From assembly GCF_010119975.1 (NCBI RefSeq), contig NZ_CP048222.1:7292501-7356500 (forward strand): a DNA stretch of 64,000 nt, given 5' to 3'. The notes beneath the pieces are model-generated. The model was not told where the DNA came from. It ran no database searches and was given only the letters and a program-made list of their open reading frames with translations. Position numbers and translations under genes: made by a program. This stretch comes from Rhodocytophaga rosea. Its GTDB lineage: Bacteria; Bacteroidota; Bacteroidia; Cytophagales; 172606-1. This document shows, in pieces, positions 59,615 through 62,953 of this stretch (positions are counted from its first letter, which is position 1; every line of letters begins with the position of its first letter).

Positions 59615-60277
59615 TCAGGGTGTATCGCTGGGGAATATCGTTTGTATTCCCTGTTCAAACGCTGAATATTTTTTCATCTGATACCGGTGGTGAATCACTA
59701 CACCCAGTAAGAAAAGGAGAATACCTGAAATCGTGAAGCCATATACTGGTAAGAGATTTACGAACCGAAGAACCATGCCGGAAAATACGCCTATCAGTAT
59801 ACTGTTGATCACTGCTATCATTCCTGCATTGGTCACCAGGTGTTGCCAGAATGAGTGGGTAGGCATAATGCCCATATCGCGTACAGCACTCGCTACATCA
59901 TCGTGAATAGAATGGATAAAATATGGTTTTAGCTTGGGAGCGAGCTCTACATAATAGTGGCGAATGCGGTTGATACCTCTGGAATGAACCATATTCTCAA
60001 TGGCAGTCTGTATAGCCCGCTCAAAAGTAATCATTCCCAGGAAAAGCAGGCAAGGAAATAGCACCAGTCCGAATACGAAAAAAGCTTGTCCCATATCAGA
60101 TACCTGGCCAATAAAAGCCAGGGCAACTACTGCACTGGAAACCGTACTCATAAACAGGGTTGCCCGCCCATTGGCTTCAGCGATGGTTGCAGCCTTAGCG
60201 GTTTGCAGTATAAAGTGTTCAGTGGTTAAAAACTGCAGGATTTGTTCCTGTGTAGCTTGATCAGGGAGAGTGGCCAT
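59615..60277 (-). CDS. Membrane protein of unknown function
   Basis: A 220-residue protein from the ATG at 60275-60277 (MATLPDQATQEQILQFLTTE); the longer frame begins with an unlikely extension. At least four hydrophobic helices are seen, for example LFMSTVSSAVVALAFIG, AFFVFGLVLFPCLLFLGMIT, AGMIAVINSILIGVFSGMVL and YGFTISGILLFLLGVVIHH. It is an inner-membrane protein with no recognised domain. It is transcribed away from the hairpin-rich non-coding segment. Confidence 0.78.
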   Translation of the reverse strand: MATLPDQATQEQILQFLTTEHFILQTAKAATIAEANGRATLFMSTVSSAVVALAFIGQVSDMGQAFFVFGLVLFPCLLFLGMITFERAIQTAIENMVHSRGINRIRHYYVELAPKLKPYFIHSIHDDVASAVRDMGIMPTHSFWQHLVTNAGMIAVINSILIGVFSGMVLRFVNLLPVYGFTISGILLFLLGVVIHHRYQMKKYSAFEQGIQTIFPSDTP

Positions 60278-60507
60278 AGCAGCAGGTTGAGGGTAAAATA
60301 AGAAGTTCCGGTTCCTGTTTTCAAAGATACACTTGCACATCTATAAAGCAAGCCACACTGGAGTAAGCTCTTTGCTAAATTAAGGGAAATCCTTTGCTTA
60401 TAGTGGGAAATGTTCAGCTTATCTAGATAGGCTGCCCTTGCATTACTACTAAATAGTTTTAGAGGTTGTGGTCAAGGTTTATTTCTGTAAAAGTAAAGAC
60501 TTGCTTT

Positions 60508-60760
60508 ATGTCTGGCCGTCTTTACTATTCTTTTGCTTGCGCAAAAGACGGCAAAAACGAGAGTTTTTGAGCGGGCCTTGTGCTTAGCCTGTGTGGTAAA
60601 GCGAGAGCTTTGAGCCAGCTTTGTGTGCTGGTAACAAAACACTTGTGAGGAGAGAGCCGAAGCAAGCCAACAGAACCGAGCACGAGAGTGCGAAGGTTGC
60701 CTGCGTAACAGTTCTGGCAAAAATTAAAAATGCTTCCTGGCTTTTGCCAAAATAGGCGAG
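60508..60760 (+). ncRNA. Candidate structured RNA or structured repeat (six or more hairpins, three GAGA tetraloops)
   Basis: This segment lies in a 600-bp gap between two minus-strand genes. Hairpins seen on the plus strand: GCCGTCTTT (60515-60523) with AAAGACGGC (60544-60552); AAAAAC-GAGA-GTTTTT (60553-60568); AAAGC-GAGA-GCTTT (60598-60611); CCAGC (60615-60619) with GCTGG (60627-60631); AACC...GCAC-GAGA-GTGC...GGTT (60674-60698), nested inside CAGAAC/GTTCTG (60671-60676 with 60711-60716); TGGCAAAA (60715-60722) with TTTTGCCA (60742-60749). The GAGA loops are GNRA-type on this strand only, so transcription would be plus. No known RNA family was recognised; it may instead be a multi-copy structured repeat. 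The ORFs across it are on the minus strand and not convincing. Confidence 0.45.
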
Positions 60761-60877
60761 CTTCGTTTTATTTATCCTCTCACGCAAGGGACGTTTGTTT
60801 TATTTTTAGTTGTGATTACTTGCTTCGATGCGTATTCAAAAATTCTTATCTATCCGAAATCTCTAGAACTAATTCAT

Positions 60878-62953
60878 TTAGATAGATTGAAAGTTCTTTT
60901 TAATACCGAGCTTTTTCATCCGTGCTTCCAGGGTAGTAGGCTTCAAACCCAGGCGCTGAGCAGCCCCAGACTTGCCCCGGATACGGCCACCGGTTTCTTG
61001 CAAAATATCCAGAATATGTTGCCGCTGATTCTCCAGAAAGGCATTTTCTATCTCATCCAAATTTACAGCTATTGGTTGAAAGTTAACAGGCGTATCATTA
61101 TCACTTTCCTTAGGCAAGGTTATAGGTGTGACAAAACTTGGTATTACATCTAATTGTGACCCTGTGGCTATAATCACAGATTGTTCTACGATGTGTTCTA
61201 ATTCACGGATATTGCCAGGCCAGGAGTGGTTCAGCAGATTTTGCATTACAGATGGGTGAATACTTTTAATAGTTTTACCCATTTTCCGGGCAAATTTGTC
61301 TGCAAAGCCATTCACCAGCAAAGGAATATCCTCCAGGCGTTCCCGCAATGGCGGAAGAAGCAATGGAAAAGTATTGAGCCTGTAATATAAATCTAATCGG
61401 AATTTACCCTGGGCTGCTTCCTGCCGCAGATTCCGGTTGGTAGCGGCAATTACCCGGATATCTAAATGAATGGTTTGTTTTCCGCCAATCCGTTCAATTT
61501 CATATTCCTGCAATACCCGCAATAACTTCGATTGAAGTTCAAGAGGCAGTTCGCCGATTTCATCCAGAAAAATAGTGCCGCCTTGTGCCAGTTCAAATTT
61601 TCCGATCCGCCGTTCGGTAGCCCCGGTAAATGACCCTTTTTCATGCCCGAATAATTCCGATTCGATAAGCTGGGAGGGCAGGGCAGCACAGTTTACTTTA
61701 ATCAAAGGCCGGTTTTTCCGTCCCGACAAGTTATGAATCGCTCTGGCCAGCAGTTCTTTTCCTGTACCGGTTTCCCCTTGAATAAGCACGGTAGAATCAG
61801 TAGGAGCCACTTTGTGTACATCTTCTAATACTCGTTTAATAGCTTGCGACTGCCCTACTATTTCTGCCAGGGTAGGATCATAATTCAATTCCTGGATCAA
61901 TAGCGAATTTTCCTGCCTCAGTTTTGTTTCCAGTACCTCTTTTTGCTCAAAAGCCAGCAACCTGCCGATCTGATGGGTGATCTGATTAGCGAGATCCGTT
62001 AAGATACGAAGGTCTTTGGCAGAAAATGCATGTTCGGTGCGGCTGCATACAATTAAGGTGGCATAGGCTTCATTGGGCAGACAAATGGGGATATACATGG
62101 CTTCTTTAATGCCCATCAGGTGCATAAACCGATTGGTGATCAGCCGCTTTTCGCTCAGCCGTACAAACTCCGCTCCGGCTACAATTCTGGGCGTCGTATA
62201 TAACGTAAGATCTGTCTGGGCTGATTCCCGGTAGGTCTGTAAATCTAATCCGATAAAGTCAAGCAGTTCTTCCCGGTTCATCAATACAAGCCCTTCCGGC
62301 TGCCGGATCGCATTGTAGCCGCTGAGCAAAAAACCTGTATTCGTAGAAAAAGCCGGAATGGATAAAAAATCACAGGGTACCATGGTATTGATAGCAGCAG
62401 CAATGGTGAGAAACATCTGGCTGTAATCTTTTTCAGAAGTGAGTGCATTCATCACCACCAGTTGCATGGATTTCTCCCGTACCTGTTTTTCCAATATCTC
62501 AACACGCCAGGTCTGCTCTACGGCCATGGCCAGGCTTGTACACCGGAACTCCAGCCAGGTAGAGACTGTAGGTAAATAGGATGCGTCAGTAAATTGCATA
62601 ACAACAGCACCCAGGAATTTACCTTTGTTGTGTAAGGGCATCGCAAGCCAGATGGCATGAGTCGCTGTTTCAAGAACTACTTTTCTCTTCTGGGTAAATA
62701 TTTTCTCCTCTATCAGGGTATTGTTTTGTAATAGTATTCTTTTCCCAGGTGCAGGTTTTTCTACCCTTACATGTTTGTTTTCTTCTTTATACAAAGCCAG
62801 ATGCAAAGTAGAAAATCCAAGCTCAGGTTGAAACGTATAAAGATAACTCACTATTTCCTGTAATTTCTGCATCCCAAGCAGCGATAGTAAAAAAGCAGGA
62901 TATTCCTGCTGTAAAGTAACGTCAGGAGTCGTTTCTAAAGATGCAGTTTTCAT
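60878..62953 (-). CDS. Sigma-54-interacting transcriptional activator (GAF, AAA+, HTH)
   Basis: A 691-residue bacterial enhancer-binding protein. The N-terminal 350 residues form a sensory region with a GAF-like end (DLRILTDLANQITHQIGRLL). The AAA+ domain begins LAEIVGQSQAIKRVLEDVHK, with Walker A GETGTGKELLARAIH, the sigma-54 contact loop GSFTGATERRIGKFEL (GSFTGA in place of GAFTGA), Walker B GGTIFLDEIGELPLELQ and an R-finger region. The C-terminus is a Fis-type HTH (GKSGAAQRLGLKPTTLEARM). It binds an enhancer and opens sigma-54 promoters. It is divergent from an SDR gene that has a -24/-12-like sequence. Confidence 0.94.
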   Translation of the reverse strand: MKTASLETTPDVTLQQEYPAFLLSLLGMQKLQEIVSYLYTFQPELGFSTLHLALYKEENKHVRVEKPAPGKRILLQNNTLIEEKIFTQKRKVVLETATHAIWLAMPLHNKGKFLGAVVMQFTDASYLPTVSTWLEFRCTSLAMAVEQTWRVEILEKQVREKSMQLVVMNALTSEKDYSQMFLTIAAAINTMVPCDFLSIPAFSTNTGFLLSGYNAIRQPEGLVLMNREELLDFIGLDLQTYRESAQTDLTLYTTPRIVAGAEFVRLSEKRLITNRFMHLMGIKEAMYIPICLPNEAYATLIVCSRTEHAFSAKDLRILTDLANQITHQIGRLLAFEQKEVLETKLRQENSLLIQELNYDPTLAEIVGQSQAIKRVLEDVHKVAPTDSTVLIQGETGTGKELLARAIHNLSGRKNRPLIKVNCAALPSQLIESELFGHEKGSFTGATERRIGKFELAQGGTIFLDEIGELPLELQSKLLRVLQEYEIERIGGKQTIHLDIRVIAATNRNLRQEAAQGKFRLDLYYRLNTFPLLLPPLRERLEDIPLLVNGFADKFARKMGKTIKSIHPSVMQNLLNHSWPGNIRELEHIVEQSVIIATGSQLDVIPSFVTPITLPKESDNDTPVNFQPIAVNLDEIENAFLENQRQHILDILQETGGRIRGKSGAAQRLGLKPTTLEARMKKLGIKKNFQSI

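Follow-up and report, generated by a model that had tools for sequence, protein, structure and literature searches.

What kind of sequence occupies the hairpin-rich spacer at positions 60508-60760 of the 64,000-nucleotide stretch of Rhodocytophaga rosea DNA analysed here (the window) is the question raised by this locus, as the preliminary description considered an undescribed structured RNA, a part of one, or a mobile structured repeat. The segment lies, as had been described, between two minus-strand genes, one (59615-60340) encoding a 241-amino acid protein matched by neither Pfam nor NCBIfam at E 0.01, and the other (60878-62953) a 691-amino acid sigma-54-dependent activator. Its richness in hairpins was borne out on both strands: folding of positions 60490-60770 gave -97.6 kcal/mol for the plus strand, a value reached by none of 200 dinucleotide shuffles (z -3.09), and -84.0 kcal/mol for the minus strand, reached by one of 200 (z -3.11). 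The three GAGA-loop hairpins reported for the plus strand were located at 60552-60569 (CAAAAAC-GAGA-GTTTTTG), 60598-60611 (AAAGC-GAGA-GCTTT) and 60680-60691 (GCAC-GAGA-GTGC), together with a fourth, decayed one with a single mismatch at 60649-60658 (GGA-GAGA-GCC). A chance origin of these hairpins was rejected on the basis of the shuffles and of homologous copies elsewhere in the genome. Minus-strand open reading frames of 82 and 67 amino acids run across the segment, and other copies of the repeat described below are crossed by such frames on either strand or by none. Rfam 15 gave no match at gathering score in the 64-kb window (best sub-threshold E 2.8), and two terminator-like hits were obtained in the window spacer, with 0.5 expected, both inside the part designated module B below.

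The segment, when used as a query, returned at least 33 matches, falling over different parts of it, in the 8,983,451-bp genome of R. rosea, and three further family queries returned at least 52, at least 45 and at least 28; merged at 500 bp, and with solitary units included, these matches represent at least 67 distinct sites. The suggestion of a multi-copy, mobile structured repeat was therefore right, although the flanking duplications anticipated alongside the copies were not seen for those of types A, B and C that were read, occurring only at two full IS982-type elements. A single RNA gene found no support, the segment being one of the dispersed copies of a mosaic repeat. In copies aligned by eye the family mostly begins with (C)TTA(C/G) or similar and then GCCGTC, continues with a long hairpin, TTACTTTT.TTTTGC.TGCCCAAAA.AAAAGTAAC, and AAAA, and ends in a right module such as A (GCACCAAC...GTTGCTGCACC) or B (GGCAAAATGAAAA...CGCTTTTCATTT); in the sister type C the left hairpin is another one, TTACTTTCTTTGTCATTGCTACAAAGAAAGTAA. 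Each of the optional inserts has its own place: M1 and M2 interrupt the 3′ arm of the hairpin, M3 follows GTAACAAAACA and M4 sits within M3. The window copy comprises M1, M2, M3, M4 and a decayed B. Copies were present on both strands at 7 of the 67 merged sites, mostly as a tail-to-tail pairing of A and either C or B; such pairs, at 430531, 2116684, 5062060, 5591872, 7030837 and 8408764 of the R. rosea contig (G000:C1), are composites with hairpin ends facing outward on both sides. The flanks of copies L005 and L030 also contain another short repeat, of CAATGACCAATGACTATTGACC type. No description of the repeat, or of its left-hairpin or unit-core strings, was found in the literature searched. 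That the repeat carries a promoter directed toward the next gene was rejected, as TANNTTTG occurred five times in 29 leaders and six times on the other strand, with 4.3 expected.

Comparison of copies allowed the plus strand of the window copy to be divided into its parts. The left flank carries AGGTTGTGGTCAAGG at 60463-60477, a motif common to other B-type copies (L012 and L029) which may mark the end of another outer frame. The conserved left hairpin, GCCGTCTTTACTATTCTTTTGCTTGCGCAAAAG, extends over 60515-60547, with CGTC at 60517-60520, and takes the form of a 14-bp stem, TTACTTTTATTTTG/CAAAATAAAAGTAA, in insert-free copies. The pairing CTTTTGC/GCAAAAG (60530-60536/60541-60547), for which a conformational switch had been proposed, proved to be the apical part of this hairpin, and AGTAAAGAC at 60492-60500 lies within a flank that varies from copy to copy, which also argues against a switch. 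The left hairpin has its 3′ arm interrupted by two optional inserts, M1 (60550-60572), a hairpin reading GGC-AAAAAC-GAGA-GTTTTT-GAGC, and M2 (60596-60616), AAAGC-GAGA-GCTTT with a GA bulge, which elsewhere reads AAACAT-GCGA-ATGTTT or AAAAC-GAAA-GTTTT. As the loose anchors used to compare M1, M2 and M4 inserts also caught unrelated stretches, the rows used were those for AB, M1, M2 and two true M4 inserts. The double-hairpin unit M3 is represented by its hairpin 1 (60642-60666, CTTGT-GA-GGA-GAGA-GCC-GAA-GCAAG), of which the inner stem is decayed, and its hairpin-2 region contains a further such unit, M4 (60673-60699, GAACC-GA-GCAC-GAGA-GTGC-GAA-GGTTG). Leftover hairpin-2 parts of M4 and M3, CCTGCGTAACAGTTCTGGC, occupy 60700-60718; the unit scan recovered no hairpin 2 in the window copy, and in L005, which is less decayed, the corresponding part is TGC-GTA-GCA. 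The copy ends in a degenerate right module B, GGCAAAAATTAAAAATGCTTCC...CTTCGTTTTATTTATCCTCTCACGCAAGG, at 60716-60789.

M3 and M4 follow a common plan, consisting of a 5-bp outer stem, an internal loop with GA on the 5′ and GAA on the 3′ side, an inner stem of 3-4 bp and a GNRA loop, followed after 1-2 nucleotides by a mini-hairpin of 4 bp, whose triloop is mostly NNA (commonest GTA, in 20 of 51, and GCA, in 9 of 51). The whole unit measures approximately 36-42 nucleotides and has no coding capacity. GNRA and GNA loops are stable both in RNA and in single-stranded DNA. DNA and RNA folding alike gave both hairpins on the GNRA strand, and for one unit whose complement was folded too the complement was less stable; individual units folded modestly better than their shuffles (z -1.7 to -2.4). 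In a set of 21 units, obtained by a scan with a pairing filter, 97.8% of pair cells were paired, with a covariation score that none of 500 shuffles reached; double changes were seen at seven of nine pairs, a number also reached in 10 of the 500 shuffles, and the 14 further pair types did not exceed the shuffled value of 14.4. A second scan, in which the core was fixed, a GNNA loop imposed and the outer stem and hairpin 2 left free, yielded 61 units, whose outer stem had 5 bp in 55, 4 bp in four, 3 bp in one and 2 bp in one, as compared to 0-3 outer pairs in 30 of the 32 non-unit matches. The 25 distinct outer stems among them were 92.8% paired, versus 59.4% after shuffling (maximum of 72.8% over 2000 shuffles), thereby upholding the suspicion that the GNRA stems covary, and a hairpin 2 stem of at least 4 bp was present in 51 of 61 units, versus 12.8 after shuffling (maximum of 22 over 300 shuffles). 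Within the imposed GNNA the tetraloops were GNGA in 57 units, GNTA in three and GNAA in one, so that 58 of 61 are GNRA; one further unit, in L012, has the loop ACAA.

Filled and empty copies, compared side by side, showed that this unit takes the place of about 3-7 bases, mostly purines, in hosts unrelated to each other. The bases replaced are AAAGG in A and B, AAAA in C, where the unit displaces bases of a host stem, and about GGAGGTA where a unit lies inside A in the opposite direction. In a gene for an IS3-family transposase a single codon such as GAA, GAG, AAA or GAC is replaced; among 14 distinct copies of this gene aligned over the site the unit was present in two (L340 and L346) and absent from 12, one of which is an open 318-amino acid IS3 transposase and two of which (L342 and L345) carry at the site a short duplication unrelated to the unit. 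As the position is identical in both species, the filling of the IS3 gene may represent one event. Replacement of GGAAA and of GGATA was seen in the GCGTGAGGGATAG...GCCCGACCC repeat of another Cytophagales family, f15, in which the target is apparently a loop. This multi-copy repeat (L319-L333, in genomes G161, G178 and G202) reads GCGTGAGGGATAGAAGC[GGAAA]GCCC...GAGGACTTGNAGC[GGATA]GCCCGACCC...CACGCCC and thus has two slots, either of which the unit may fill. In genome G004 (L297 1473-1876, G004:C73) the unit lies within an insertion relative to the Rfam model RF02001, matched at 28.1 bits against a gathering score of 32, and the host is probably domain I of a group II intron; downstream of this match the contig continues for about 1 kb, with no open reading frame of at least 150 amino acids. 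A solitary unit, L014, sits inside a broken IS3-type gene, approximately 0.8 kb from a remnant of a Y1 transposase and amid IS remnants (L063 and L014, G000:C1:3020690-3021737).

The age of the repeat sites was approached by comparing the flanks of 47 R. rosea loci with sequence of the sister species R. aerolata (three contigs, sampled over 800 kb in one and about 0.4 Mb in each of the others), in which both flanks could be placed for six. The repeat is absent from R. aerolata at the sites of L012, L030, L034 and L044, and the L049 site is rearranged; at L027 R. aerolata has the same left hairpin joined to module A and R. rosea has the hairpin joined to B. Four of the five comparable intergenic sites are therefore empty and one carries a different right module, so that the repeat sites look young. 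Just three copies of the left hairpin, with five substitutions allowed, were present in 1.6 Mb of R. aerolata. Over a wider range the unit core pattern, which favours GNGA loops, occurred in 13 out of 241 genomes of Cytophagales, in several of them in multiple copies, as compared to two for the reversed control, and Rfam matches at loci from 20 relatives numbered seven, all below gathering score. An exact degenerate pattern of the left hairpin occurred in 31 genome-contig stretches from Cytophagales, Cyclobacteriaceae, Flavipsychrobacter, other Bacteroidetes and, in three stretches, Selenomonadaceae/Selenomonadales, and the parts to the right of the hairpin differ by lineage. In the Selenomonadaceae/Selenomonadales records (L101, L110 and L118) the left hairpin TTACTTTTCTTTTGCTTGCCCAAAAGAAAAGTAACAAAAGAAAA is likewise present and is followed by a different right part. 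With up to three mismatches the left hairpin was present in three of 395 genomes drawn evenly from the phylum, R. rosea with 36 matches included, and it had no match in viral contigs.

The repeat is strongly oriented with respect to its neighbours. At 41 R. rosea loci, counted with a simple ORF caller and with L010 and L023 representing one site, 30 copies lie between two genes opposite to the element, two between genes of the same direction, five between convergent and four between divergent genes; 30 of 32 antisense corresponds to a two-sided binomial probability near 2.5e-7, and the GNRA strand is thus usually the one that is not transcribed from the neighbours. Of the two sense exceptions, L004 carries IS982-type ends by end pattern and L007 appears by eye to do so, and removal of the framed copies L003, L004, L007 and L054, a split made after the fact, leaves a ratio of 28:0. 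Copies of type C gave 10:6, or 10:2 when four paired with an A copy are left out, and the few extra B copies 2:1, with an A copy paired to the one exception. Elsewhere, among the exact-pattern loci of other records, of which 18 of 31 were countable, the ratio was 8:3, for which reason the bias may be a property of the Rhodocytophagaceae. Selection against the other orientation and orientation-specific insertion would fit the bias alike. Replication strand was rejected as the main pattern, as the distribution of single-strand sites by contig half (13 plus and 15 minus in the first, 22 plus and 10 minus in the second) is far weaker than the bias relative to gene direction.

Among the ways in which such a family could have arisen, spread by an IS982-type (and another) transposase as ordinary IS-derived MITEs, with internal variety due solely to recombination between copies, is in our judgement unlikely. 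The IS982 end TTAACRTGAGNTCGGAGATA had 12 hits with up to three mismatches in the R. rosea genome, as compared to four for the reversed control, and two end pairs enclose 1015-bp elements (L150 and L149, G000:C1:36314-37328 and 4191967-4192981) with the 8-bp target duplications TAAAAATA and TTTTATTA and a 310-amino acid transposase scoring 197.4 against an IS982 cut-off of 130. These two elements, probably the parents of a set of MITE-like repeats, share their ends with several A′-type copies, and other IS982-type ends bound or abut repeats of that type. The framed set, chosen after the data had been seen, comprises L003, L004, L054, L011 and L040 by end pattern and L007 by eye, with partial end look-alikes in L028, L048 and L049 counted as unframed. 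An IS982-derived MITE has been described in Cardinium (PMC9769881), and the module swap at L027 is also as expected from recombination. IS982 ends are, however, found on some copies only, none of the 12 hits being near position 7,353,000, where the window copy lies, and the units in the IS3 gene, the f15 repeat and the probable group II intron share no flanks with the MITEs. A REP/BIME system moved on single-stranded DNA by a Y1 (RAYT-like) transposase we regard as very improbable. Hairpins with one-strand polarity, the tail-to-tail arrangement of A with C or B, the presence of Y1 genes and a left-end CGTC like that of CGTC-tagged REPs (PMC3733652) are features in its favour; yet the 600-bp flanks of the five Y1 transposase matches in the genome contain no repeat copy, the stem length, loop and tail are unlike those of the published CGTC families (PMC3733652), and orientation tracks gene direction far more than contig half.

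A family of functional structured RNAs, with a transcript of its own antisense to the neighbouring genes, variable peripheral helices, and GNRA and GA loops for tertiary contacts, accounts for the orientation against genes, for GNRA loops in 58 of 61 units (under a filter that already required GNNA) and for covarying stems, the covariation being weaker in module A, with double changes at 4 of 22 predicted pairs. We nevertheless consider it distinctly unlikely, as R. aerolata lacks the repeat at four of five comparable sites, module presence differs between copies, units in C replace bases of a host stem, units occur inside an IS3 transposase gene and the window is without an Rfam match. The segment instead probably belongs to a mobile, non-coding family of mosaic hairpin repeats, as a copy that was entered by smaller hairpin units, of which the double-hairpin unit inserts independently of its host. 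This reading has in its favour the dispersed copies, the empty and filled sites, the module swap, the unrelated hosts and the covarying stems described above. A resident interspersed element, comprising the left hairpin and a right module, here B, would have been invaded by smaller hairpin insertion units, and at least the double-hairpin unit would insert regardless of host sequence, replacing a few mostly purine bases as above; inside A, B and C, gene conversion between copies could explain the variation between filled and empty sites. The unit would move in a folded, single-stranded form, whether RNA or DNA, and from one strand only, and its structure would then be kept because movement needs folding, rather than for a function in the host.

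The family resembles BOX and BIME mosaics at its outer level and mitochondrial double-hairpin elements (DHEs) at its inner level, without being assigned to any of them. The BOX repeats of Streptococcus are composites with fixed ends and variable internal modules, with repeats inserted in each other (PMC3049150); the R. rosea family, compared with them by description, has one left hairpin with optional M1-M4 and several alternative right modules, shows no tandem boxB-like array and occupies a different host. With REP/BIME sequences and GTAG- or CGTC-tagged palindromes it shares dispersed extragenic hairpins, pairs in opposite orientation and CGTC near one end. CGTC-tagged REPs combine the tag with an 8-9 bp stem, a 4-5 nucleotide loop and a CCA-like tail (PMC3733652), in contrast to the 14-bp stem, 6-nucleotide loop and absence of a CCA tail here, and unlike REP/BIME the family forms longer multi-hairpin composites with optional nested units and no Y1 gene flanked by a repeat within 600 bp. 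As with the Cardinium IS982-family MITEs, some copies lie between IS982-type ends, and the window copy has no such end. The DHEs of Allomyces and Schizosaccharomyces mitochondria and the RHEs of sponges consist of two adjacent small hairpins in spacers and RNA genes for which mobility has been proposed, and those of Allomyces lack flanking duplications (PMC10085805, PMC2800124). Shared with DHEs are two closely spaced stem-loops per unit (outer stem of 4-5 bp in 59 of 61) and the fact that spacers, genes or introns may or may not contain a unit, as evident from the filled and empty pairs and from a group II host matched below gathering score. The likeness to these elements of mitochondrial DNA is drawn by description for a unit on bacterial chromosomes, whose own features are the GA/GAA internal loop, the GNRA tetraloop, the mostly NNA triloop and nesting in other repeats. 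Tentatively, and with more doubt than confidence, the unit may be viewed as a bacterial counterpart of the double-hairpin elements, which would invade short purine-rich stretches, possibly loops, and hop as a folded single strand among Cytophagales hosts as unrelated as different repeats, an insertion sequence and an intron, the larger host repeats entering the chromosome in an orientation set by transcription.

Independent movement, if real, would make the double-hairpin unit a mobile unit of very small size, and would connect the interspersed repeats of bacteria with mitochondrial DHEs. GNRA and NNA loops on one strand only, a purine-rich target and a strong antisense orientation each make the mechanism testable, and the presence of the unit in several species, combined with empty sites, provides a ready comparative system in soil bacteria.
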